Assembly (NCBI GenBank): GCA_003116995.1
Contig: BDSL01000004.1
Coordinates: 186,001 to 250,000 of the forward strand
Direction: 5' to 3'
From: Yamagishiella unicocca
Taxonomy: Eukaryota; Chlorophyta; Chlorophyceae; Chlamydomonadales; Volvocaceae
Length of the DNA: 64,000 nucleotides
The notes beneath the pieces were generated by a model, which had not been told where the DNA came from, ran no database searches, and saw only the letters and a list, made by a program, of their open reading frames with translations. Below, one piece after another: positions 13,901 to 51,100 of the stretch (within the stretch, counting starts at the first letter, position 1; each line of letters starts with the position of its first letter). The position numbers and the translations under genes are program-made.

Positions 13901-16900
13901 TTCTCCTCCTGCTGCTGTGCCGTCTGCAGCTCCTCCCCCCCCACTTCCTCCGGCTCCTCGACCTGCTCGCCGGTCGCGTGCTGGTCCCCCTCGCGTTCCG
14001 CCTCCTCCGTGCAGTCGGGGCTGCTGACAGGCGGCAGCGACGAGGCGGTGACGGAGGGCGGCGCCGTGTTGTCCGGGGTGCCCGGGCTCATCGGGCTGCA
14101 GCTGACGGACTGCAGCAGGGCGCCGGCGGCCTGGAGGGACTTCGAGCCCTTGGCGGCAGTGGTGCTGCTGGAGGACGTACCCGCGGAGACTTGGGCGCCC
14201 CCGGATGCGGACGCGGCTTCCGCAGTCGCCACCGTCGCCGCCTCCTGCTGCCGCTGCTGCTGCTGCCGCTGCTGCTGCTGCCCCTGGTGGTGCGCAAGCG
14301 GCGCCGCCGCGGCTGCGGACGTGTCCACCCTGACCCCGACCCCGGCCCCGGACTGCGGCTGGGTCTGGGCAACTTCGCGCGCCTCCGTTGGCGGCGCAGT
14401 AGTGTCGTACTTGGCAGCTGCCGCCCCGCCGCCGCCAGCCGCCACCTTTGCCGTGGCAACAGCCACGTTGGCCTGGGGGCCGTTTTGGGTCCCGGAGGGT
14501 GCCGCGGCGGGGCGCCTGGCCGCCCCCCCCGCCGCCAGCTCCCGAGCCACCAGCTCCTCTAGCGGCGTCCCGGCGACGAGCTGCGGCACCTCGAAAAAGT
14601 ACGGCATTCTCAGCAGCTCGTCCGCCGTGGGACGAGTGAGTGGGTCGATCCGCATGCAGGCCTCCAGGAACTGGACCAGTCGCGGCCCAATGCTGTGCAG
14701 CCGGGCGGCGAGGGAGCGGCCCCGCGGGGGCACCCGCACCGAGGCCAGCCGTCCATCCACAGCCAGCCGTCCGGCCATGTAGGGCGGCAGCGGCCCAAAC
14801 ACCCGCATGATGCGCCACAGCTGGTCGGCGGTGGAGGTGCCTGCAAGGGTGGAGGCAGTGCAGGGCCGCAGCGGGGCAGGGCAGCGCAGGCAAGAGGAGT
14901 CGGGGGGCTGAGGGACGGGGCACTCTCGCGGCCACAGCCCCACCTACCGGGCATGAGCGGCTCGCCCACTGCAAGCTCGGCGACAGTACAGCCAAGCGCC
15001 CAGATGTCTGTTGCAGGCATGTGGGGGAACGGGGGCATCCAGGTTAGCAGCTGTGGATAGAGGAAGCGGACAAGAGGCCAGGTGGGGCTGCTTTCGACGG
15101 GTCACGAGCACCCGGGCGAGCGGGCGGCGGATCTGGGCCCATGCAGGGCGGCGGCAGTGGCACGCGGCCGGATGGTTGGGGGGCCAGCCGGGGGGAGGCC
15201 AGGGTAGCTGGGGAGGCCCTAGCAGCCCCCCCGCCGGGTGCTGCATCGTCCCCTCGGGGAGAGGCACTGGCAGTGGCGCCGCGGTGCAGTGCAGCACTGC
15301 CAGCGGCCTCCCTCTCCCCCAGCTTCCCCCCTCGCCGCCACCATCCCACACCCACCTGAAGCCGGACCGTACTCCATGCTGAGTAGTACCTCAGGAGCCC
15401 GGTACCTGGGAGTAGGCCCGGAGGGGGGCGAGAGGGGGGCGGGAGGGGGGAGTGCATGGGACGGCACTTCGCTCCGCAGACACCACCACCCCAGCGTGCG
15501 AGTAAGAGCCGAGTGCCCGGTGGCAGCCAGCCAGTGGCTGTTTGGGCTGTGCACCGAGTGCCTTGCGCGGTATGGTGGGTCCCATCACTGGCTGGAGAGG
15601 AGCAGTATGGTGGGTCCCATCACTGATGGAGGGGAGCCGCCAGGTGGCAGCTGCACCGGACTCACGCACGCGGCTGCAGCCCAGGACCTGCCTTACGAGC
15701 TGCTGGCGAAACCGTCTTCCATGTCCCCCATGCCCTCCATGTCCCCCATATCCTCCATGCCTTCCATGCCCTCCATGTCCTCCATGTCCCACTTCTGCCA
15801 CATGCCCAACATGTCCCCCCCCCCAAACACGCGCTGGCTGCCAGCAAGTGTGACGCAGTGTGGCAGAGGCAGCCGAGACGACCGTACCACCCACCAGCGA
15901 GTGACCACGTAGCTGGACAGCCGCTCGGCGTCCCGTGGGTCGGTACAGGAAGTGAACCTGGCGGCACAGGAAGGCAGGAGAGAAGGGAGTCCTCGCCCCG
16001 AGCAGCATTTGTCAGGCTCATGCAGTGCATGGGGTCCTCCACACGGCGAGCAGACAGCTGCCCTGGCTCCAGGAGGTGAGGGCCGCTGCTGGTGCGCCCA
16101 GCTGCGTCAGCTCCAGCTGCCTCCAGCTCCACCTCCCGGCGGCCACCTCAAGCACAGCCCACGCGCCCGCGGCTCCAGGGGGCCCCACCCACCTGGCAAA
16201 CCCGAAGTCGCACAACTTGACGACCTGGCTGTCGTTGTCGATTAGGATGTTGGACGGCTTCAGGTCTCGGTGCACGACCTGGCGGGGACGCCGAAGGGAG
16301 ACCGGGGCGGGCACCGCGTGCAGCCGGGTTCGGTTGAGCACCCAAAGGTCGCGGGCTGCGCCCCACGCTGGTGCACACCTAACCTCCCGGCCCCGGCGGT
16401 ACCCCTTAGTTCCCCCAGCTGCCCGCTTCCGGCCCCAGTGCCCCTCCTTAGCTTTCCGCCCAAAAAGGCCCACCCAATTCGGTGGAAGAACACTCCCCCG
16501 CCCGTCGAGTAACCGGTTCTTTTCTGTAACTTCCGTGCCCCACCATGCCGCTTCCCCCCTCCTTCGCTGCACGGTTTCCATGCCCCCTGTCCCGTCGCGT
16601 AAACCGGTTTTTACAAACCCCCTGCTGCCCACCTTTTCGCCGTGCAGGTAGCGCAGCGCCAGGCACAGCTGGAAGGCCATCAGCTTGAGCGACGTGGCCG
16701 GCAGCCCCATGCGGAACTTGCACAGCTCCTTGTACGCACACCCCTCAACGTACTCTGCAGGCCGAGGGGACAGGGGGGCTGTGGGCCACCACCCCGGCGG
16801 TCACCGCCGCACCTCGTGGCCTCCCCCAGAGGGTCGCTCCTCCTCGCCCCGTATATGCTTCCCCCGCGTGTGTGGGACGTATGGAACAGCAGGAACTGCT

Positions 16901-26173: not shown

Positions 26174-29100
26174 CTACTCGCCATCAGCCCCACCAGGGCC
26201 GCCGTCATCCGCCGCCGCGTCCTCGTTACTGTTGGCGTCCGCAGCAGCGGCGTCCGCGCCAACCGCATCCGCAGCACCGTCCCCTTCCGACCTCCCGCCC
26301 GCAGCCGCCTCGTCTCCGGAGCCGCCCGCCGCACCGCCCGTACCCGCGGCGGCCACCATCGCCTCGAGCGCTGCCATCGCATCGCTCTGCAGCGCGCTTC
26401 TGTTGCCGTTATCGTTGCTGGCGCCAGTCGGCGACGCCCCACCTGCTCCACCCTCCGGAGCCGGGGCGTCGCCGCCACCGCTGCTGTTGCCCAGCGCCTC
26501 CAGCAGGTTGCCCACCTGCACCCCCCCGCCGCCGCTGCCGCCACCTGCGCCGCCGTTGCTGGCGCGACCGAGCCCATCGATCAGATCGTTAAGCCGCCGT
26601 CCCGCCGGGGACGAAAGGAGCCCTCCGGCTGCAGCTCCAGCGCCGTTGCCCTGCAGCCCTGCCGCCTCCACCGCCGCCGCCACTGCGTCGGTGAGCGACA
26701 TGCCCTCAGCCATGCCGAGGCTCGCCAGCTGGTGCAGCTGCGCCTGGGCTTGCTGCTGCTGCGGGGTTTGCTGCTGCTGCTGCTGGCCCGCTGCCCCCAG
26801 GGATGCCATGGCCGCCGCCAGACCCGCCGGCCCCAGCTGCTGCATCAGCTTCGCGCCCAGGTCCGGAGCTCCCGCTGCTGCTGCGGCCGTCGCCGCATTG
26901 CCGCCGTCCTCCGCAATGGGGCTGCCGCCCTGGCCCATCTTCTTCGCGCGGCGCATGTTGTGGCGGGCAAGCCTGTTGACGGCGGCAGGCAGGGTTGGCA
27001 GGAACATCCACGAGTCGGCACGTAAGAGGAAAGCAAACCTAGTCGCGTAGTGCTTTGGGCAGCAAGGTGGGGTTGCGAGGAAGACCCATGGGTGTGAGGA
27101 AAAAACCCGTTTGGGGTGGGCTGTCACACCCCGCCGCTTCTCCACACCGCCCACGCTTCTTACATGGTGCGACACGAGCGGCGGTTGCCGTCGAACTCTG
27201 ACAGGTGGTGGAAGCGGCCGCACTGCTGGCAGAAGCGCTGCGGCACGCCGTCCTTGAGCACCGAGCTGACCTTCAGGTGGAACTCACCTGGGGATGTGTA
27301 GGGGAGGGCGGGGGCGGGGGGATGTGGACACGACAGAGGCGGGTGGGGGGAGCGCGGTGGGAGGGAGTGCGCCCCGCGAGGCTACCGGGTGCGGCAGGAG
27401 CGCCCTGCACGAGGACGACGTGCGCTTCTGAGGAGGTTGCTTGCCGGCGCGAAGATGTAGACGATGTACAGGACCGCGTCTCGTGCAAGAACAAGGGCTG
27501 TTCATGGGTGGTAGACGAAGGGGCTGCGTAGGCTAGTGCGGATCAGGGGGGCTGTGCGGCCCCCCGCCACCGACCCGCCTCGTGCGACGATGCTCCCGGC
27601 CGCTGACCGCCAGCCTCGCGGCACTCACATATCTTGTAGCGCAAGTGGTAGTCCCGGAGGCCCGTGAGGTCCGCGTAGCAGCCCTCCACGTGGCACACCC
27701 CCTTGACCTGCTGCGCGGGGGCAGAGGGAACAGAGGGGGGGGGGCAGAGGGGGTGCAAGGGGGCGGGGGGGTGACGGCAGTGAGCGAGGCGGCCGGTTGA
27801 GCACGCCCTGCCCCGGCAACTGCCTGGCGACTGGTCCCTGACCCGACCCATATAGACCGACCCGCAGCCATCTGGTGTGCCCACCTGACCCGCAGCCGCC
27901 CCGTGCACCCCGCTGGGGCCCACACCGTGCACTGGACCCGCACCCCGAGCCTCTGCTCCATTCCGCACCACATCACATCACCGAACAACCCTCGCGCAAC
28001 CCAGGCCCGCCCACCCCACTTGCCCGCCCACCCACCCCACCTGCGGTGTCCTGCGGTCTCGCTGCGGCGGGTCTGTGTATGGGGGCGTCTGCTGGGGCGG
28101 CGCCATGCCCATGCTGCCGCTCCCACCGAAGCCCCCGCGGCCCCCGCTCTGCGTCATCATGTCCTGGTCGCCCGACATGCCGCGGCCCAAGCTGCCCATA
28201 CTCTCTGCAGGCGGCAGGTGCGTGCCACGTCGGAGGGACAGTACGGCACCCACGTACGCCGACAAGCCCCCGTTGCAGCTGGGGCGGCCTATCCGAACAT
28301 CCCCGCCACCACCACCACCAACATCATCACAGCCGCACAATGTCGTTTCCGTTACTAGTCAATTAACGCAAGCGCACGTGCACGTGCGAGGTGGGTGGTG
28401 TTCCTCGCCCTCGACTTCCCGACGCGAGGTCGTGAGCCTGGCCCCCGCGGGTCGCAAGCCGCCTAGGCAGTCGCCGGCGGGATCCATGAGAGCACTCGCG
28501 GAGGGGTCCATGAGACCACCATGCGACCACCGCTCCCCAGCTCCAGAGACCACTCGAGGACAGACAGCACTCGCGGCCCTTACGACGGGCACGGGGACTG
28601 CGACTGGTAGGCGCTCCCTGCCTCGCGGCTGCAGGCCCCTGGCCGCCCACACCACCTACCGGGTTCCCAGCCGCTGCTGCGCCGGTGGTCGTCGGTCCGA
28701 GGCCGCTTGCCCCGGTTGGCCGCCGCTGCCGCCGCCAGTGCCCCCGCGAAGCCCTGCCCGCTCTCCTCCAGCTCCCGCCGCAGACCCGCCAGGTTGCCCA
28801 GCCGCTGCGCCAGTGCCGCGCTGCTGTCCACACCCCCCGGGCCCGCGCCGCCCTTGATGCCGCCGCCGTCGTCCTCCAGCAGGTTCCGTAGCGCCGCGCT
28901 GCCGCCCTTGCCCTGGCCCAGCAGGAGCTGAGCCGCAGCGCTGGCGCCGCCGCCCATACCCAGCTGCTGGAGCTGCCCCGGCGGCAGCAGCTGCAGCAGC
29001 GGCAAGGAGCTGATGGGTAACGACGAGTCCAGGGAGGGCGGCTCTCCCATGAGGGACACGGCCCCGCCGCCGCCGCCGTTGCCCCCGCCGCCCCCTGTGG

Positions 29101-32088
29101 TGGGGCTGTTCCCGCTGCTGCGCATGTACGTCTGCAGCATATCGGCAGAGATGCCTATCTGGTCCGCGAGCGCCGGCAGCAGGTGCGTGCGGCTGGGGCC
29201 GTTGGGCGAGCCCCGCAGCCAGGCGATGGCCACCTGGCGAGGGGACGACGGGGGCCGAGAGGGCGTGGATGCGGTGCAGGAAGGGGGGGAGAAGCGGGCA
29301 GCGGTGGACCCCCAGGTGGTGAGGTGGGAGGCGGGAGGCAGGGGGAACAGAGGAACAGGGTAGGCAGAAGGCCTCACGGCAAAACCGGCTAGGATGTGTT
29401 GCGTTGTTGAGGCTTCGGTGCAAGTGTGTATGCGGACCAGGACCAGGGCCAGGGGGCCGCGGCAGGAGCGAGGCCCCTCACCCCTGCCCCCACGTGCTGC
29501 TGCCGCTCACCTGCAGCGCCAGCTGTGGCGGGTGGCGGTTGTTGGCCACATCGGTGCAGATCTGCGCCACCACGTCCATGCTGGAAGCGCTGAACTCCAG
29601 GGTTGGGACAACGTCAGTAAGCCTACAGGGGCGGAGGCGCAGGGGCATACGCCAGGGTCGTCAGGGCGGCAAGTGGCGGGAGGTTCGGGTCAGAATGCGG
29701 TGCCATCCGCCCAGCAGCTCACACTACCGGTGCGCAGGCGTGAGCCCCGCTCCAAGTCCAAGGCTCTGGTCGCACACGCAGCCCAAGGACCTGCCCCGCC
29801 CGCTCGGTGCCTCTCTCTGCGCTCGTACCTCACATTGCCCTCCGGGCGGGTCTGAGGTGTGCGCATGCCGCCGTGCAGGCCCCCCTGACGACCCCCTCCC
29901 GCGCCGCCACCCCGCCGCGCCGCTCCGCTGGACCATCACCTTCACCCCCCTCGGTTTGTCGGCCGCGGATTCGCGGATTCTCTTATCAAACCCCCTACCT
30001 TGTGCGGATGAACTGCAGGCACACCTCCGCCAGCCGCCCCGTCTTGGTGTTCATGGCTCGGTCCAGCAGCAGGCAGGCGTTGCCGGGCGTCAAGCTTGCG
30101 CTCACGAACTGCTCCACCGCGCCCGGCAGGCCGTTTACCTGCGACCAATCAGCCAACCAGCCGCAGACCAGGATCAGGGCGAGTCAGGGAGCTGAGGCCG
30201 CGGCAAACGAAGTCGCCCTTCAAGCGGCTCGTCGGCGCCAGTGCAAGCCGTGGCGGCCCCCGTGCAGTGGGGCCCGTGTGGGTTTGCTGCCATGTAGCAA
30301 GCGCCGCTCCCCTTCCTGTATGGAGCTGCACACGCGGGCACCCAGCATCCGCACCTCGAGCTTCACGGCCGCATCGTATATGCTTGACGCGGTGGCCAGC
30401 GTCAGCGGGCACTCCCCCGTGTAGAACGAGTCGATCAGCGTGTCGAGCGCGTCGCTATCAACACCCTGGACCGGCAGCTTGGATCCGGTGAAGTCGCCTG
30501 AGGCGGCACGAGTTCGATTCCAGGGCGGGGTGTTGTGCTGTGCGGGACTGCGGGACCGCACCCGTCCAGGCCGCGTGCGCGCACCGTTTAGTGCGGTCCA
30601 TGGAGAGAGATGCACCTCCCAGCGCTGTGGAGAGACCACATCGGATATGGCTGGCCCGCTAGGCTTTGCAAAGGCTGGTGTGCCCGCCCCGCCAAGCCGG
30701 GGATAGGGGCTGCTCCCGATAGCCACTTCGCGGATTCTCTTATAAACCCCCCATCCGGCACAAGCCAGCTGGAGCAAGGGCGTCCCCGACCCACATCAAC
30801 CCCCGCTTCCTCGTTCGGCGTAACCCTCCTCTGTATGAGCTACAATCAGGTCCCCGACCCGCAGCCAGCCAGCTTTCCTACTTTCCCAGGACGCGCGGCT
30901 GTTGACCTGACGCGTGATTGGGGACAGCCCTTGCGAGACGCGAGCCCAGGATTTGCGTGGCGTGGTGGCGCCGAACTGGGTCATAGGAACTTATTCATAA
31001 GGACTGGGTCGTGGGCACTGGGTCACGGGAGCGCAGGTTCCGCCGACCGCATCGTGAAACATGTCTGCTCTTCCGTCGGAATTTTAGGAGTGCTACAGAA
31101 TCGTGAACAATCCTCGGACGACAGGATCCCGACCGCCACCGTGTTCCAAACGAGCTAAGCCTAAACGCAGACCGCACCCCCCGGACGTTTACACGCCCCA
31201 CCAAAAGTTTGACGCGAGAAGTCCTCCTGACGTCGTTCTGCCCCTCACCCCCGAAACCGCAGTCCGACCATACATGGCAGTGATAGATTGCATACGACAA
31301 CGCTATCCTGGAAGGGAGCCGTGTTTTCCTACGATTGCTGCAATCCAGACCGTAACCTCTTATTACGTGACGGTAAGACAGTAAGACAAGCCATATAGCA
31401 CAGCTGCAAGGGGAACACACTGTGCGCCATTATTGTGCCAGCACCGAAGGCCCTTAGGAGGCTTAGCCCCGGAACCACCCGCGTAACTGCCAGCGCACCT
31501 TGCTTGAGAACAGACGCAAGACGTTTGCTGGACGCCGCCAATATTACTTGGTGGCAACGCAGCTGGCGGCCGTCGGGACAGACAAGAGTGATGTCCGAAA
31601 ACGTCGGGTTATTGTAAAAGCTCCTGGTGCCCGTGACCAGCAACCGTGCCAGGTCAATGTAACATTGCGCTTGCTGCGGTCGACAATTTAGGGCACAGCC
31701 GGCAAGCCAGTTACTGGCCGTCCTGCGCCGCCCGCACCGAGCACTGCCCGGGCACGCGGCATATGCAGCGCAGCACAGGCAAATGCACTGCAGCTAGCAC
31801 ATGTTGTGACCGAACCGGGTGCAATACATCGCTGTACATCGTGGTCAACAGCGCGAGCCCTTAGCAGTACAAAAGCAATCCGAACCCAACACTTCGCGAC
31901 ACCAGCCCCTAATCCGCGTCCGACGATGCACATAAAGCATGCGCGTAATATCGACAATATGCTCTGTTCAATGCGACGGGCTGGTGGTCCCTGAAAGGCC
32001 GGTCTTGCAGGCCTCCATCGAGCACAGGGCCACCCACCTCGCCAGCCTGGGGTGCCAGCTGCAGCACCCCAGCCTTGGCAGAGCTCAT
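26174..32088 (-). CDS. BTB-BACK protein fused to an SBP-box DNA-binding domain
   Basis: Phase-compatible exons are 32088-32038 (tentative first exon), 31673-31499, 30497-30334 (donor uncertain), 30138-29999, 29622-29511, 29233-28660, 28204-28041, 27710-27629, 27287-27164 and 26972-26174, about 794 residues. The N-terminal part is a BTB/POZ domain: PTFSDITLVCPDG, CHQVILAASSKRL, GVDSDALDTLIDSFYTGE and AAVKLEV. A BACK domain follows: SLTPGNACLLLDRA, EVCLQFIR, and VAIAWLRGSP into ALADQIGIS. After a Gly/Leu/Gln-rich linker with GKRPR comes a complete SBP domain: CHVEGC, DYHLRYKICEFH, QRFCQQCGRFHHLSEFD and SCRTMLARHNMRRAKK, keeping the eight expected zinc ligands. The tail is Gln/Ala/Gly-rich. SBP proteins bind GTAC-core DNA; BTB-BACK proteins usually dimerise and recruit CUL3. 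One exon (29233-28660) carries both the end of BACK and the linker toward SBP, which supports a single gene. Confidence 0.8.
29912..29996 (+). repeat. Dispersed repeat family C, copy spanning a splice donor
   Basis: This 85-bp stretch matches 40589-40673 over nearly its whole length. Shared blocks are CTCCGCTGGACCA and GGATTCGCGGATTCTCTTAT. On the minus strand its end supplies most of the intron start just after the BTB-SBP exon that ends at 29999. Confidence 0.8.
30725..30752 (+). repeat. Dispersed repeat family C, short copy
   Basis: It contains TTCGCGGATTCTCTTATAAA followed by a run of C, matching the core of the longer copies at 29912 and 40589. It lies in the 1-kb intron between BTB-SBP exons starting at 31499 and 30497. 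Confidence 0.75.
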
Positions 32089-34072
32089 CCTCAACTGCTG
32101 CCGGCCGTATCAAGCCTGTGGCCCTGACCGGTACCGCCCAAAAGGTCGGACACCGTCAGGCGTCAAGCAAGCTGGAAGTCCGCCAGCTCCAGCCACCTCC
32201 CTGGCTAATGCGCAACCTAGTGGTGGGTGATTTACAAGCAGTACAGTTGTATCTCGTAATTTGTGGTCTCGTATTTTACAGCAACCTGTTGTAGCGCTCC
32301 ACACAATCCATGCTGTCTGTATGGTGAGAAGCACGACAAAGCTTCACGGCAAGGCTTCACGACCACTATGCTATTGCTTCCCCATAGCAGTATGGGACTC
32401 TGGGTAGCTGTTGTCCATCCGTACACATCGTACGAGGAGTACCTCTTCTCCTCCACTATTGCTTTGCTCATGCCCAAGTGCAGGGCGCTAAAACATATCG
32501 TGCATGGTCGAGGATTCTGATGAACAATACTGCAAAATGGCCTCCACTTGTTTGTTTTATACCGGGCCTTACTGCGGGCTCGTCTTGCGCATGGGCTCCC
32601 GTCCAGCGGCGTCTGCAGCACTGAGCTGTTTACGTCTGCAGGGAGCCATTATACTTCGCATCGGCAGTCATGGCGTGCCATATGTGTGGTACGATGTAGG
32701 CGACTCCCAACATAATTTAACGCTCTGCGCGCAAAGGGCACATTGCATGTATCTGCCCTTGTCTTAGGCGCATCCAAAATAATAAAGGCGCAGACCCTCG
32801 CATGACCGAATCCTGGGATCGGACCAAAACTCAGCCACACCACCAGCAGCAGCCCGCCGTTGCCTGCCTTGGACACGGCCACGCTTGCCGCGGCGCTCAG
32901 CCTGCGGTCTCCTGCCTATCGGGCACCTATCCATCGTAGGTAGCCACTGCGCGGCGACGAGCTCTATGCAAACTGCGCCAGGGCGCGCCACAGACCCTCT
33001 TCTTTGGTGCCTGGAAGGGTCGGGCTTGGGCAGCAACGGAACCGCCCACACAAGTTTGCGGTGCATTAATGTACGAAACGCAGTGGTGGTGTCACGGTTG
33101 GTGTCCCTGGTGCATACTGCGAGAGGATGTGTCTTCCACACTGCACCCACAGGGGTATGCGTTCTCTGACTTCTCGTGGATGCGGTAATTTAGGAAGGAT
33201 ATTGGATAGACGGATTGCTCCCGTTGCCTGGTAGCTCTGGTCATCCTGGACTTGAGTGACCGTTGCTACCCGTTGCATTTCCGTACGTGACCGAGGTTAC
33301 GGTTGGTTATTTCACGTTGGCACGGCACGGCTCAGCGGCATGCAGTCATGTGGCAACACACTCTGGTTGGCATCCGGCATATTCGTGCAATACACATCTC
33401 GATGCCGCGCCGTCACGTCCATCGGATATCGCTCGTCATCCCAGAACAGAAATCACGCGTTGCGCCAAGGCCCTCGCAGCACATTGGCGATTCGAGGGCA
33501 ATTTGCAATCAAGTAAAACTAAAACAAAAGCCACCTGTGTACGTGCATTCGGCGCGCCGGATGATGTCCTTAGCACTGTACCTTCACTTTCCATCTGGAG
33601 TTCCGGACCTTCCGTACGCAGCTTCGCTTCTCGTTGCGACCTGAAGCGGCCGCCGGACCCCGACGCACGCGTCAAGCACACGTGGAGCTAGCTTCCGGCC
33701 ACATGGCCGCATGTTATATCGCAACGCGGCCGGTGCGGGGACTAGCACTGGCGAGCCGCGGACCCTCAGTCGGCCCGTCCGTCGTCACACAGCTCAGCAC
33801 CAGTGGCTGCCCCAACCGCCACGAGCGCGCGGGGCGCGGGGCCGGTACCTTCGCACCCACCCAGCTGCAGGTGCTGCGCGTCCATCCCGGCCGAGCCCTC
33901 CCGCCAGCCCTTCCCCCTCACGCCACCACCAATATCGTAATTCACAAATACGCTCTGCCGCGCGCTGCTTCGATCAGTGAAGTCGCTGCGAAGTCCCGGT
34001 CCCAGCCTCTGGCCCGCGCAGCCGAGCGCCAGGGAGGCAGCAGCTAGCCCCGCATGCCGCCTCCGCTGCCGC
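32089..34072. other. Intergenic region upstream of BTB-SBP and downstream of FHIT
   Basis: This holds the promoter of the minus-strand BTB-SBP gene and the 3' UTR of the minus-strand FHIT gene. Base composition is mixed and codon-like bias is absent. No further gene or repeat family was recognised. Confidence 0.45.
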
Positions 34073-35649
34073 CTACAGCAGCAGCGCCCTTAACACGCTG
34101 GCCTCCTCCGCCATCTCGGCATCAGTCCGCACGCGCCGCGCCTTATCCAGGTCTAGCTTCTCCGCCTGGCCGGCGCTGCGGGTGGGGGAAGGGCGGTGGA
34201 GTGTAGCGGAGAGCGGTCGATGATATCGGGGAGACATGTGCGGCTAGTGGAGGGTGAGTTGCGGAAGGGCGGTTGTGGTTCAAGGCGGCTGCCGGGGAGC
34301 GTGAAAGACACGGTGAGCAGAGTTGCAGCGACCCGAAGCAGCCCGCACGTCACGGCCGGTGCCGATGCAGCGGTCTCAGTTCTCACCCATGTGCAGACGC
34401 CTTCACGTACTCGGCAGCTTCCCTGTCAATGGCGTCGTACACCTCGTCGTTCTTGGCGAAGTCCCCCGCTTTCCGCGGCAGCACGTGGATGTGTACATGG
34501 GGCACCGTCTGACCTGTGCCGCGACACAGCCAAGTGGTGAAGGCGGCGAGAGGAAGCACCGCACGACGAACTAAGTAGGGATCCAGGCTGGACATCCTTA
34601 GTTGATGGAAAACAAGGAGCGCGGTGCATAGCAGTACCGGCCGGGAGGCGACTCGCCATGAGGCTAGGAAGAGGCAGTGGAGGACCGGTCAGAAGACGGC
34701 AATAGCCATGGCACCAGCCCTCCCGCCCCGCCCCTATACTACGGCAATATCCGCGCGCAGTACTTCGTCATCAGCTGGTGAAGTAGAGGGCGAGCAGCTC
34801 CTGCCACCCCCGCCGCCCCTCCTGCCGCCCCTCCTGCCGCCCCTCCTGCCGCCCACCCGCCATGGCGCCGTCCTGGATGGCCAGCGTCAGCGACTGCGCG
34901 CCGTAGTGAGGCTCCACTGCTCGGCCGATGCGCTGAGCTAGCAACCTGGGCGGGGGGCCGCAGCGGGAGCGACCAACAGCGAGGCGCTCTCACCCTACCA
35001 GGCGTACGCATCAGTTATTTATCTGGGACAGGCCTACCCACAGTCGACTGGACTGCGGCCAGCTGCCGGTTCGTGCAATTAGCTACGGTGACGCCCAGAT
35101 CAAGGAGACTGCAATTTTCTTGGCTGACCCCCATCCCCACTGACTGACCCCCACGCACCACAAGTCCGCCACCTCTTGGGGAGTCAGGTCCATGAACCTC
35201 TGCACCAGGCGTTTGGGGCTGACAAGTACATGACCTGGGGGGGGGAAATCGGTTTTGGCTCCCAAGGCGGTGACCCCAGACGCGTCCAAGGAATCCTCTT
35301 CCCCCCCCCCCGGCCTCAGTGTACAGACGACCGCAATCGCTACCTGCAGAGCCCCTACTCACCCGGGACGACAGGCTTGAGGTTGACGAAACCAAAAGAG
35401 AGGTCCGTCAAGGCAAAGACATGAGAACCGGGGATGGGATGTGGCCCGAACTTGTACTACAACGCCGGACCGCGCGCGCAGGTAGGGCACGGAATTGTTA
35501 TCGCCGGCGAGAAGCTCGATGCCCCGCAGCATGTGGCTTACCGTAATCGAGTTATCCATTTTAGCACAGGCTGTCTGCGAGCGTCGTTGGTGCAAAGTCG
35601 GTGCGTGGAGCGCCGCTGCGCTGCGGAGCCGCGAGCCAACAGCCCGCAT
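34073..35649 (-). CDS. FHIT: FHIT-type diadenosine polyphosphate hydrolase (HIT family)
   Basis: Six exons join in phase: 35649-35542, 35456-35363, 35234-35159, 34945-34857, 34513-34387 and 34175-34073 (TAG). The product reads [69 protein letters not shown], and the HIT triad [14 protein letters not shown], then [10 protein letters not shown] and a short helical tail, like human FHIT throughout. It should cleave Ap3A/Ap4A-type dinucleotides; the histidine of the HxHxH motif is the nucleophile. Two starts are possible. ATG at 35649 adds a 30-residue Arg/Ala/Ser-rich leader resembling an organelle presequence. ATG at 35559 gives a 168-residue cytosolic form matching the usual FHIT start. A 12-bp repeat (34812-34857) abuts the splice donor of the fourth exon. 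Confidence 0.92.
34812..34857. repeat. 12-bp tandem repeat at an FHIT splice donor
   Basis: GCCGCCCCTCCT is repeated three times, starting at 34812, 34824 and 34836. A partial fourth copy merges into the minus-strand donor GTGGGC of the exon ending at 34857. Confidence 0.85.
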
Positions 35650-39800: not shown

Positions 39801-42800
39801 ATGCCAGAAAAAACCGTTTAGAACAGACGCCAGGTGGGATGAAGGCCTTGCGGGTACGCTGCACAGAGCCCCAAGACGTGCCCGCGAGCCCAAACCAAAG
39901 GCACAGTGCGCAGCAGCTGAGGGGCTCGCAGCCACAGCCGAAGCCCAGGACTAGGAGCGACCCCCCACCGCGTCATCCTAGCCCGCTGCTGCCTCGCAGC
40001 CCTGCCCGCCGGCCCCCACCTGCTGGTAGTTGATCCACCGCCGCTGCAGCTCCTTGCTCTCTTGCGCCTTGGTGTCGATCTCCCGCTGCAGGTTCTTGAT
40101 GGTCGCCTCCAGCGGCCCGGTCTCCTCGCCGGTGCCGCGGGCGTCCAAGATGCGCTCGTACCTGCACCGAGAAGGGGTTCGAGGAAGACCCGTGGATGCC
40201 CGAGAAGGGGAGGGCGGCGAGGAGACCCGGTTACACGACATAGAGGAGAAGCCAGGAGACATGAGCCAGGGGGCCAGGCCCCCTTCAGGGGCTCCTGCAC
40301 CGCGGGGAACGGTCCCGACGCGCTGCTCACCTCCTGTTGAGGATGTCGATTTCGCGGGTCTTCTTTTCGATCTCGTCGTTCCGCCTCTTGATCTCCAGCT
40401 CGTACTTTTCGATGGTGCGGCCCTTGTCGCGCAGCTCCTCGTCTAGTAGGCTGAGGGTCTCGGCCAGCCGCGTGTTGTGAGCCTCGGTGTTCAGGACGTC
40501 CACCTGGGGCACGGCGACCGGACCGGGGGGCGCCGTCAGCATGATCCCCCCCTTGCTACCCCTCCACCTCCGTCTCCGCTCCGTCTCCTCGCCGCGCCTC
40601 TCCGCTGGACCACCACCTTCACCGCCCCCGGCTTTGCCGGCCGTGGATTCGCGGATTCTCTTATAAAACCCCTCATACCTCCGCACCGCCTTCCACGCCG
40701 AGCGAATCAACATCAACAACGCATCCGACACCCCCGCCTGGCCCCGATACCGGCCCCGGTACCGGCAAGACCGCACCCCTACCAAGCCCGGAAGCCAAGC
40801 CCCCGCCCGGGACACCCACCCCTCCGCTCCGAATCCCCCCTGCGCCGCACCTGCAGCTTCGCCAGCTCGTTCTCCGTCTCCACCACCGCCAGCTCCTCCG
40901 TGCGGATGCGTCTGCGCAAGTCGCCGGTGTCGGTGGCCGTCTTGGAGGTGGCCTTCTCGGCCGTGGTCTGGTCGGACAGCGCCGCCAGCATCTCCTCCTC
41001 TATGCTCCTGCTCTCAGCCGCCACCTTGGTAATGGCGCGGTCCACTGCGTCCGCCTCGCCCTGCAGCGCCACACACCAACACCGACAACGACATCGACAC
41101 CGGCGCCAGAGCAGCACAGTGAGGAGCACTTCTTTGGGGCAGGCCGCTTAGGCGGGTGTGGGTTTGCATCACATAGCCACGGCGGCACGGCTGCAGGTCC
41201 CTGGCAGCTGCGCGAGCCCCACCTGCAGCGCCTTCTTCTCGTTGTTGACCCGCGTGACCTCAGCCTCCGTGTGCTCCAGGGACTTGGCCAGCTTGGTCAG
41301 GATCTCTTGCAGCCGGGCCTGAGGTGGCGGAGGGGGGGGGGGGAGAGGACCCGGTTAACCTCGGAAGGCGGGGGGGAGGTCGTGAGGTGTGCGTTGGCCG
41401 AAGGAAAGCCGACATGCATGACCACGGGTCCGCCGCCGGTGCAGTTGGGCTCGACACCTGCCAGCCCAGTGCAGGCTGCAGCGCAGGAACTGGGAGCGCC
41501 AGGGACTGCGCACGGGCCCGTGAGAACCTGACACAAACGTCTACTGGTGTCCTTCTTACACCGCACGCGAAGCACGTGTATGGAATGTTGCAGCATTGAG
41601 TGCAGCAGGAGCAGCGCAGGCCGCGGCCCCACTCAGCCCTCCGGCTGTGTAGCAGCCCCCCAGCTGTATCCGGGGGTTCCGCACCTGCCGCTCCTGGGCA
41701 GCCTCAATCTGCTTCTGTACGAACACTGCGTCGCCCTCCACTTTCCGTACTACTGCAGTCAGCGCCTCGTGCTTGAGCTGCTCCTTGGTCACGTCCTGTG
41801 TAGCGACAGGGGGCGGGCGGGTAGGGAGGTGGGGGCACGGCAGAGTGAGGGTGGGCAGGAAGGTGGGGGCAAGGCAGAGTGAGGCGGGCAGGGAGGTGGG
41901 GGCAAGGCAGAGTGAGGGTGGGCAGGAAGGTGGGGGCAAGGCAGAGTGCGGGCAGGCTAGCAGGGGTCCCAACGCTGTCGAACCCATGCAAGACAGCCAG
42001 CAGAATGTGTGGGGACAAGACACCCGCAACAGCAGTCGCTGCAGCGGCGCGGGCGCTGCGGCCGCCCCCCCCCGGCGTGCCCCCACGCGCCTTCTTGTAG
42101 CCCTCGATCTCCAGCGACAGCGACAGCTCCTGCTGCTGCTGCTCCCGCATTCCGTCCTGGATGGCAGACAGCGCCTCGTCGCGCCTTCACAGGGGGAGCG
42201 CGAGGACAGGGAGGGCGAGGGCAGGGCAGGGAGGGGCGGGGCGGGGCGGGGGAGGGAGGGGAGGGGCGGGGGGAAGGTGTTTTGGGTCAGGACTACAGGA
42301 GCCGAAGGTCACGGGAAGCTACTCATGTGCAGCAAGCTCGGGGATCCCGCCCCGTGACAGGTGCTGGTTGCACCAATGCAAAGATCTGTCCGCTGCAGCG
42401 GTAGCGGTCCTCACTTTTGGATCGACAGCAGGCTGCTCTTCCACTGCGCCACCAGCTGCTTCTTCTCGAAGTGGACGTTCTCCATCTCGGCCTGCAAGCA
42501 GGACGAGGGCGCCCTCGCTAAGGGCCAAAGACACGCCGCCGCTCGACTCCCCCCAGTCACACGGTCACACAGGCACGAGTACCGCCCGAGGCCGGACTGC
42601 CTGCAGCGCCAGGTGCTCGGCCCCGCCTCCTCCCGGCTCGCACCTCCGCCTCCGCAAGGGTTTCGAGCGCCGCGCGCGTTTCCCGCTTCTGCGCCTCCAG
42701 CTGCGCGGAGACCAGGGACATCTGCTGCTGCGCGCTTTTGAGGTTCTCCTGGAGCGTGTCGATCCTGTGGGTGACGCGCGCGAGGGGGGCACCCGGGTGT

Positions 42801-48154: not shown

Positions 48155-51100
48155 ATGGCTTCTAACAGCCCAACCATTAGCACTGCGCCGGCCGCGCTGG
48201 CGCCAGCTTCGTTGCCTGCACCTGCGTCCGTACCAGCCTCTGTTTCTTCGCCCTTTATGAATGGGAATGTGATCGATGGTAAGGCTGTCGCCGCAAAGAT
48301 TAGGGAGGAGACGGCCGCAAAGGTGACAGAGCTCAAGGCCAAGTACAATCGGGTAGGCCTACTACAATTGCCAAATTACATTCAACACCACGCATTGCAG
48401 GTCATTCGGCTTCCATATCGTTTGAAGGGTGTTGATCTGGGGCTCACAAGCCTTCGCTCGCACCCTGTGCGATTTTGCATACTTCACTTCGTACGCCCCC
48501 ATTGCGCACATACTGTATCAAATTTGTCATCTAGCAACGCAATGGTCCCGTAGCTGATATGGGTTGCTGACGTAGTCCTTCAGTGTCCCGTTTCCCTGCC
48601 TTGATAATAACCGACAAGCAGTGCCACAACCATGTCCCCCTAGCCTAACCTCGGATGCCTTTCCACAAACTATCGCTAGGTACCTGGTCTAGCAGTGGTA
48701 ATTGTCGGCGAGCGCAAGGACAGCCAGACTTACGTGCGCATGAAGCGGAAGGTGAGCCGTTGAGAGGTTCAAGGGGTTAACATGATGCAGACAAGACCAA
48801 CAAGGTACGGCTGACGGTGTGCAAGGAAATGCAGGGGCACGGCGTTGGGGCGTTCCTGGCTTCTGTCAGGCTGGTTCGACTCACGAATGAGGGCCAAAAC
48901 GAATACACACTGGAGACGTCTGGCATTGCATCTTTTGGGCCCAGCCACCTGCCGCGGAGCGGCTTTGAAGGGCCGGGTCCTGAGAGCTTGTAGCTCCTTT
49001 TCGCCGCCGGTACCGCAACGGACACTCGCTGACAAGGATCGCGCGCCTTGTACGCCCGCCTGCCCTCTCCCCTCTACCTCTTAGGCATGTGAGGAGGTAG
49101 GCATCGCTTCCTTCGGCGCTGACCTGCACCTGCCAGACACGGCCACCCAGGTGCGGCCCAGTTTGTCTCCTGCCAGCTGCCCGCGCCTGTGCCGACCCAC
49201 GCCGTCCACCCGGGCCGCAAGCACTAATAGCGCCTACTTCTGAGGCCGCCTGCGCCCTCACCACCTCACCCGCGTGTACGTCACCACACGGCAATATTCA
49301 CGCCCACGCGCCTGCCCGCCCGCTGCGCCCTTGTCGGCCCTTTCCTGTCCCCGCTAGGAAGAGGTCCTGGCGGTGGTGCGCGCCTTCAACGACAACCCGG
49401 ACGTGCACGGCATCCTGGTCCAGCTGCCGCTGCCGAAGCACATCGACGAGCAGGTGTGTGCGCAACCGCGCCAATGGGTCTCTCGCTACTCCAGGCCCGC
49501 AGAGAAGCTTGGGGTGCAAGGAAGGTGACGGTTGCCAGCGCGCACACCTACGGGCGTTCAACGTCCTCCTCAGCCGTTATCGTAATGGGCGCGCCAGCGC
49601 CGCCGCCAGATCACCACAACCACAACCACAACCACCACAACCGCTACCATTGCCGCCGCTGCCTCTCCGCCGCCGCCGCCACCACCAGGCCGTCCTGAGC
49701 GCCATCAGCGTCGAAAAGGACGTTGACGGCTTCCATCCGCTCAACATCGGGCGCCTGGCCATGAAGGGGCGCGAGCCGCTTTTCGTGCCATGCACGCCGC
49801 TGGGCTGCATGGAGCTGCTGGAGAGGTGCGGCAGCGCGACTGATTGGCGCATTGGCTCCGGCGTGGGCTGGAAACACCGTGTCCATATAAGCTACCCCTC
49901 TGCTCCGGCCCCCTGCACACCAGGTGCGGCATCCCCACCAAGGGCAAGCGCGCCGTGGTGGTGGGTCGCTCCAACATCGTGGGCATGCCCGCGGCGATGC
50001 TGCTGAACAAGCGCGACGCCACCGTCACGATCTGCCACTCCGCAACCAAGGTGGGCTGGTACCGGTGGTGGGTTTAGAGGAAAGGCAGTGTAATAGGGAA
50101 TGGTGGTGGTTTAGGGTTACAGGGTTTTAGGACGAGGTTGGGAAACGTGCGTGTGGGAAACGGATTGCCCTAACGGCCTGGGCTTCTTCCTAGTATAACC
50201 ACGGGGTATGGCGGGGATGGCGGTGGCGGTCAGGTGGCACCTGATGGGCATAAGACGTGGTCACGTGCGTTCCGCGCAGGACATGGAGAGCATCATACGG
50301 CAGGCGGACATCATCATTGCCGCCGCTGGCCAGGCCCAGCTGATCCGCGGCAGCTGGGTCAAGCCAGGCGCCGCCATCATCGACGTCGGAACCAACCCGA
50401 TTGACGACCCGTCGAAGGTACGACGAAATAGCGTCCTTAGGTGTCGAACATGGGCCGCACCCTGGAAGCGTTCGAAGAGGCTAGGTCCTTGGGGCGCACG
50501 TCGCTGCGTGTATCATGTATCATGTACCATGTATCATATATCCACCTAATCCCAGAGCGATTCCGCGGGTTCATGACACTGGGACCGTCTCAAAATCCAG
50601 GCTGCTGGCTACCGCTTGGTGGGAGATGCGAACTTCGACGAGTGCAAGGCGGTGGCGGGCGCAATCACGCCCGTGCCCGGTGGGTCGCTCGCGGGGGCGG
50701 GTAACGGGATTAGCCGTCCTTGCCTCCATGAATCATCGTCGCCAGCGGGATCTAAAGCCCTTCGCGCCCCGACCACTCAACGCCCCCTCATGGCGCACTC
50801 TGCACTGTGCAGGCGGCGTGGGCCCTATGACCATCGCCATCCTCCTCAGGAACACAATGGAGAGCGGGGAGCGGTTCATCTCTGGAAAGCTGGAGGTACG
50901 TATGTCCTCTGGGTAGTGCGGATCTGGCTCGACGTTCTTCTGCCCTCGTAGCTGCAGGGTGTCATTCTGGCAACCAGATACCGGGTATGGCGACGCCTAC
51001 CTTGTCCGGGAAAGGTGGTCGGGATGCTGATAAACTTGACGGCAAATTGGCGGGTGATCTCTGTGCGTCCCTAATCGACTTGGGGAGTATGTTTCCACGA

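Follow-up and report, generated by a model that had tools for sequence, protein, structure and literature searches.

We describe a gene in a 64,000-nucleotide stretch of the genome of the volvocine green alga Yamagishiella unicocca (the window; bases 186001-250000 of contig 4, in an assembly of 133.4 Mb and 1415 contigs) whose predicted product joins BTB-BACK and SBP domains in one protein. The gene is real, conserved and multiplied, with three paralogous loci in this genome, and it is probably old. Our preferred reading, to which we assign a probability of about 0.62, is that the protein is a BTB-paired SBP transcription factor working like the animal ZBTB proteins; that it dimerises, binds DNA and acts on targets is what we infer from its domains and their conservation.

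The gene runs on the minus strand from 32088 to 26174 in ten exons (Table 1), all joining in a single phase; the nine introns between them are all GT-AG and measure 191 to 1001 bases, and the sole stop is the terminal one. Third-codon GC is 0.82-0.96 in exons 3 to 9, 0.76 in exon 1, 0.64 in exon 2 and 0.79 in exon 10, and 15 of the 17 residues encoded by exon 1 are identical to the N-terminus of the Volvox orthologs P0002 (V. africanus) and P0003 (V. reticuliferus). The acceptor of exon 8 is a CAGCAG site, giving a product of 786 residues if position 27707 is used and of 787 residues with 27710; because the three close orthologs, these two and P0001 of Pleodorina starrii, read TPQVKG or TLQVKG and not PQQVKG, 27707 is probably the acceptor.

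From its N-terminus the protein comprises a BTB domain, BACK, a linker of about 205 residues, an SBP domain and a low-complexity tail. Pfam scores the BTB at 53.1 bits (cut-off 20.5) and the SBP at 105 bits (cut-off 27) and finds no other domain, C2H2 fingers included, while a scan of one unspliced reading frame gave no domain at all because introns split the SBP domain. All eight zinc ligands of the SBP are present from residue 459 onwards (C3H plus C2HC) with the spacing C-x4-C-x16-C-x2-H-x15-C-x2-C-x3-H-x11-C, and the basic linker motif GKRPR, in exon 6, is identical in four proteins. An earlier reading of this DNA, made from the sequence only, had described one minus-strand exon chain in consistent phase, encoding BTB, BACK, a linker with a basic GKRPR motif and a complete SBP domain with eight expected ligands; the chain, the motif and the SBP are all borne out, the last by its exact spacing and Pfam score, and the BACK domain is borne out in part. 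In the window protein BACK gave no Pfam match even at E 0.1, and in ortholog P0003 it reached 12.5 bits against a cut-off of 20.9, which P0005, P0024 and P0029 exceed. A profile of the family (A2 alignment) nevertheless matches KLHL3 through BTB and BACK (E 1.2e-31), and the AlphaFold model of P0003 places eight BACK helices at 144-247 and gives the linker a low pLDDT (predicted local distance difference test) score. The window protein has the BTB fold, and the BTB-BACK fold extends over about 200 residues; the rows of the fold alignment span mostly 25-139, so the BACK part draws on fewer matches.

That both halves belong to one gene is indicated by the orthologs, which are collinear with the window protein at 74-80% identity along most of their length. 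Over aligned positions, identity amounts to 97% in the BTB, 82-89% in BACK, 67-79% in the linker, 96-99% in the SBP and 55-63% in the tail; the N-terminus of the Pleodorina model departs from the window protein, and P0002 and P0003 carry additional residues where exons 6 and 7 meet. Two separate genes, it had been proposed beforehand, would be marked by a stop or poly(A) site in the interval 29233 to 27710. The minus strand of this interval contains no TGTAA, the poly(A) signal of Chlamydomonas, in-frame stops appear upon retention of intron 28659-28205 or 28040-27708, and three orthologs from the annotations of other species span both junctions. BTB and SBP are moreover found together in 24 of 81 distinct database proteins (mostly predictions themselves); one of these, P0018, with 979 residues or 2,937 coding bases, sits on a contig of 4,678 bases, and two other loci of the Yamagishiella genome show BTB-BACK and then SBP on one strand.

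The reading of the product as a BTB-paired SBP factor follows from a conserved pairing residue and from the overall plan of the protein. Asp44 aligns with the charged-pocket Asp of BTB domains (A1 alignment), equivalent to D35 of PLZF, and this residue is kept in 17 of the 17 A2 rows having the position, four further rows being gapped there. Without the equivalent Asp, neither PLZF nor POB1, a nuclear BTB-BACK protein of plants, dimerises efficiently (PMC5249250). In animal BTB zinc-finger factors, 100-375 linker residues separate the BTB at the N-terminus from the fingers at the C-terminus, and it is mostly these two ends that are conserved (PMC1257465). The window protein follows the plan of ZBTB/POK factors such as BCL6 and PLZF, with an N-terminal BTB and a long linker before the DNA-binding domain, but it has SBP in place of C2H2 Krueppel-type fingers, BACK after the BTB and a long tail beyond the DNA-binding domain; it would work like a ZBTB without being a member of that family. 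With SBP-box/SPL factors, including CRR1 of Chlamydomonas, it has in common a complete SBP with both zinc sites (PDB relatives SPL4, 5, 7, 12 and 13A), and it differs from them by its N-terminal BTB-BACK partner; the trebouxiophyte proteins P0038, P0042, P0043 and P0046 have PF26102, some with ankyrin repeats. We propose that the SBP domain would bind GTAC-core sites of nuclear promoters (GTAC is named as the SBP core in a title cited in PMC10796333), that the BTB would pair two chains, of itself or of a paralog, and that the long flexible linkers could thereby let both SBP domains reach paired or clustered sites. Activation or repression might come from partners contacted by BACK and by the disordered Gln/Gly-rich linker and tail.

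Three GTAC cores 9 bp apart lie at 32421-32442, 333-351 bp upstream of the ATG, and nowhere else in the window do three such cores fall within 25 bp. The expectation from first-order shuffles is 0.15 such triplets per window (maximum 3), other loci of the genome totalling 231,908 bases contain 11 more, and the first kb upstream of the gene holds 7 GTAC compared with 184 in 64 kb. The triplet is a possible autoregulatory site and, having been noticed post hoc, a lead only.

The architecture recurs across green algae. The 81 proteins came from three database searches with precomputed Pfam annotation; BTB and SBP occur together in Chlorophyceae (the volvocines Pleodorina, Volvox and Gonium, Chlamydomonas reinhardtii, C. 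schloesseri, C. eustigma, Chlamydomonas sp. UWO 241, Sanguina, Haematococcus, Scenedesmus and Raphidocelis) and in the ulvophytes Ostreobium and Bryopsis. P0011, P0014 and P0015 start within the BTB and appear to be cut gene models. Matches from trebouxiophytes (Trebouxia, Coccomyxa, Myrmecia, Symbiochloris and others) had SBP without BTB, in a search that reaches only proteins of similar length sharing exact words. Another recurring SBP partner, distinct from BTB, is PF26102, found in P0035, P0037-P0043, P0046, P0048 and P0075, some of them with ankyrin repeats and the named ones trebouxiophytes. The EukProt protein P0022 (1157 residues) has BTB-BACK-SBP and an extra N-terminal PF05871, the ESCRT-II VPS25 domain; this is either a second fusion or two genes merged in the model.

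The architecture is visible in protein databases but seems undescribed in the literature. Among the matches listed from open PubMed Central (PMC) full text, which gave partial texts and leaves most subscription papers outside, we found no description of BTB plus SBP in one protein. BTB is not mentioned in a 2024 SPL survey of streptophyte algae or in a 2016 survey of microalgal transcription factors, nor is SBP in a 2026 review of plant BTB proteins or in the available part of a BTB census of 17 eukaryotes. The statement of the sequence-only reading that it knew of no described BTB-BACK-SBP protein therefore appears to stand for papers but not for databases, where the 24 proteins already show both Pfam domains. 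These observations suggest that green algae, using a plant-lineage domain, arrived independently at the plan of a BTB with a zinc DNA-binder that is familiar chiefly from animals, and that the class is old and multiplied in these algae.

At least three BTB-BACK-SBP genes are present in this genome, in the window and on contigs C3 and C13 (Table 1). Its SBP loci comprise 25 matches at 22 places; upstream DNA was read at 13 of these, with BTB-BACK found at 3 and absent at the other 10. In whole-genome BTB-BACK searches, the contigs of the remaining 9 places gave no BTB-BACK match, and a BTB family search had matches on the contigs of two of them (C24 and C108), at a distance of over 50 kb from the SBP match; three genes is accordingly a lower bound. 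By our reading, introns interrupt the window and C3 genes at common positions: inside the BTB loop (phase 1, a position that C13 has as well), following KLE, following LQ and within the Cys codon of KIC in the SBP. In a BTB-BACK tree holding the window protein and 19 of the 24 database BTB-SBP proteins, these 20 rows fall on one side of a branch (support 93/91; 92% of 200 bootstrap trees), within which the two ulvophytes and P0050 diverge from the remaining 17. The tree omits P0002 and P0056, whose close kin are included, and P0013, P0020 and P0044, whose BTBs are truncated or interrupted. On the simplest reading, a single fusion probably preceded the parting of Chlorophyceae from the ulvophytes Ostreobium and Bryopsis and was followed by duplication, although that single origin is itself inferred. 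Contig C14 carries a fourth BTB-BACK gene of this type (L050, G000:C14:22401-29400, 65-1353), closest to P0022 and P0007; no SBP was found near it within the 7 kb read, and it is possibly a paralog that lost its SBP.

One of the paralogs in other algae is P0008, the C. reinhardtii protein CHLRE_01g012200v5, whose locus number is that of PIR3 (Cre01.g012200). Like the window protein, P0008 has BTB, a weak BACK (18.7 bits, below the threshold of 20.9) and SBP by Pfam, and no bZIP at E 1, but it belongs to another paralog clade, represented here by the C13 gene. According to a 2023 Cell paper, mutation of PIR3 depletes photosystem I, and the protein is a predicted bZIP conserved to land plants (PMC10760936). 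The sak1 paper on singlet oxygen also lists Cre01.g012200, giving it no family name (PMC4067076). The available parts of these two papers mention neither SBP nor BTB for this locus and are silent on the window clade itself. If the locus numbers denote the same gene, loss of photosystem I is already on record as the mutant phenotype of one BTB-SBP paralog, the bZIP label needs correcting and the class is testable at once in Chlamydomonas; otherwise the link falls.

Several observations weigh against our preferred reading, a BTB-paired SBP transcription factor of probably single origin. Where SBP-box factors have a basic nuclear-localisation segment that overlaps zinc site 2 at the C-terminus, the window protein reads NRRSCRTMLARHNMRRAKK; this stretch is basic, yet SPL4's runs RRRL and RRRK are missing from it, the window clade having RSCRTML...RRAKK where SPL4 has RSCRRRL...RRRK; given this altered tail, nuclear import or DNA affinity may differ from those of SPL4. 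The support of 93/91 for the BTB-BACK clade does not exceed the 95/80 mark, with few outgroups (8 BTB loci of this genome and KLHL3 only). The SBP-domain tree (81 columns) needs two label changes and neither shows nor rejects one origin; it took in one (L001) of the nine SBP-only loci of this genome intended for it, and its motif missed P0014, P0015, P0030, P0032 and P0034. Finally, the link to PIR3 consists of a shared locus number in another paralog clade and is at odds with the published bZIP label.

Among the alternatives, the one that fares best, though we think it unlikely, is a DNA-bound CUL3 adaptor in which BTB-BACK would bring CUL3-RBX1 to promoters and ubiquitinate partners or the factor itself, as a built-in turnover. 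CUL3 is encoded in the genome (a C68 exon, with Cullin-3 in 14 of 14 PDB matches), and the BTB-BACK fold is alike to that of KLHL3, KBTBD2 and plant POB1. Unlike KLHL3-type adaptors, however, the window protein has SBP in place of Kelch, and the window clade is without a phi-x-[D/E] loop. KLHL3 touches CUL3 via M83-S84-E85, and the substitutions E85A, A77E and M78V each make binding unmeasurable (PMC3616122). Aligned by profile with KLHL3, the family has an alpha3-beta4 loop shorter by two residues, and the aligned window residues are not phi-x-[D/E]; of the 21 A2 rows, 18 include the loop, and by our reading not one of these has the motif at the aligned place. The loop of the window clade reads GDFTGSKLP or GGFTG[AS]KLP, preceded by Val-Leu-Lys, while the paralogs P0006, P0007, P0010, P0018 and P0022 have hydrophobic-Leu-[E/D] immediately before it, and the window residue aligned with KLHL3 M78 is Val. 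On the other hand, vaccinia A55 retains nanomolar binding when phi is replaced, phi being reported as not critical there (PMC6484134). We have lowered the adaptor reading because the motif is missing, and have kept it because A55 tolerates the loss of phi and CUL3 is present. The earlier proposal of a DNA-bound CUL3 adaptor or a self-dimerising, self-degrading transcription factor thus divides: self-dimerisation finds support in the BTB fold and in the conservation of the charged-pocket Asp, while the loop of the window clade lends no support to the adaptor and self-degrading half. More doubtful still is the wider proposal of an ancient core-chlorophyte factor class in which a single chain would bind DNA, pair with paralogs through its BTB and be turned over by way of CUL3; the promoter-bound factor would then set its own lifetime, and the PIR3 paralog would provide a link to photosystem I supply.

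We regard it as improbable that the protein is a cytosolic or co-regulator scaffold whose SBP would contact proteins or metals, in the manner of a copper or redox sensor, and which would act mainly via BTB-BACK partners and not via DNA. Such a role would fit the basic SBP tail, weaker in the window clade than in SPL4, and the inclusion of the copper regulator CRR1 among SBP proteins, as judged from titles in a reference list, but the SBP keeps 79 of 80 residues and all eight zinc ligands relative to Pleodorina, as expected for a DNA-binding surface, and the linker GKRPR motif is invariant. Very improbable is the wrongful merger of a neighbouring BTB-BACK gene and an SBP gene by the exon model, which an in-frame stop 77 bases into intron 28659-28205 and ATGs in exon 7 that could begin an SBP gene might suggest; we reject it on ortholog collinearity and database architecture.

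Table 1. Exons of the BTB-SBP gene (window positions) and its paralogs in the same genome (contig positions).
Feature	Position	Strand	Content and evidence
Exon 1	32038..32088	-	start codon, residues 1-17 MSSAKAGVLQLAPQAGE; GT donor, in phase
Exon 2	31499..31673	-	first BTB half incl. charged-pocket Asp44; GT-AG, phase 0 to 1; Pfam BTB 37-137
Exon 3	30355..30497	-	second BTB half; shortened alpha3-beta4 loop (FTGSKLP)
Exon 4	29999..30138	-	BTB end and BACK start; KLHL3 BTB-BACK profile match, AlphaFold helices in P0003
Exon 5	29511..29622	-	BACK helices; KLHL3 profile match, P0003 model
Exon 6	28660..29233	-	final BACK helices, then disordered linker with basic GKRPR motif
Exon 7	28041..28204	-	remaining linker; both flanking junctions continuous in P0001, P0002, P0003
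Exon 8	27629..27707	-	SBP zinc site 1, first three Cys; probable acceptor, alternative at 27710
Exon 9	27164..27287	-	the His of SBP zinc site 1, then zinc site 2; PDB match SPL4 1ul4, E 5.4e-25
Exon 10	26174..26972	-	SBP basic tail end, low-complexity Gln/Ala/Gly tail, stop codon
Paralog	C3 ~2580.5-2585.9 kb		close to P0004
Paralog	C13 ~691.8-698.6 kb		close to P0008 and P0013

The 17-base sequence ATAAGAGAATCCGCGAA is repeated exactly on the minus strand, at 29970-29986 and 30727-30743 in introns of the BTB-SBP gene and again 10 kb off at 40648-40664; it was seen 0 times in 100 shuffles and is perhaps part of a dispersed element. Elsewhere in the window, the end of a HIT domain (PF01230, 21.8 bits) is found in a minus-strand frame at 34383-34688, upstream of the BTB-SBP gene and in its orientation, a protein kinase match (PF00069, E 7.8e-15) at 16021-16800 on the minus strand, and a weak tetrahydrofolate dehydrogenase/cyclohydrolase match (PF02882, 25.7 of 27 bits) at 49101-50003 on the plus strand.
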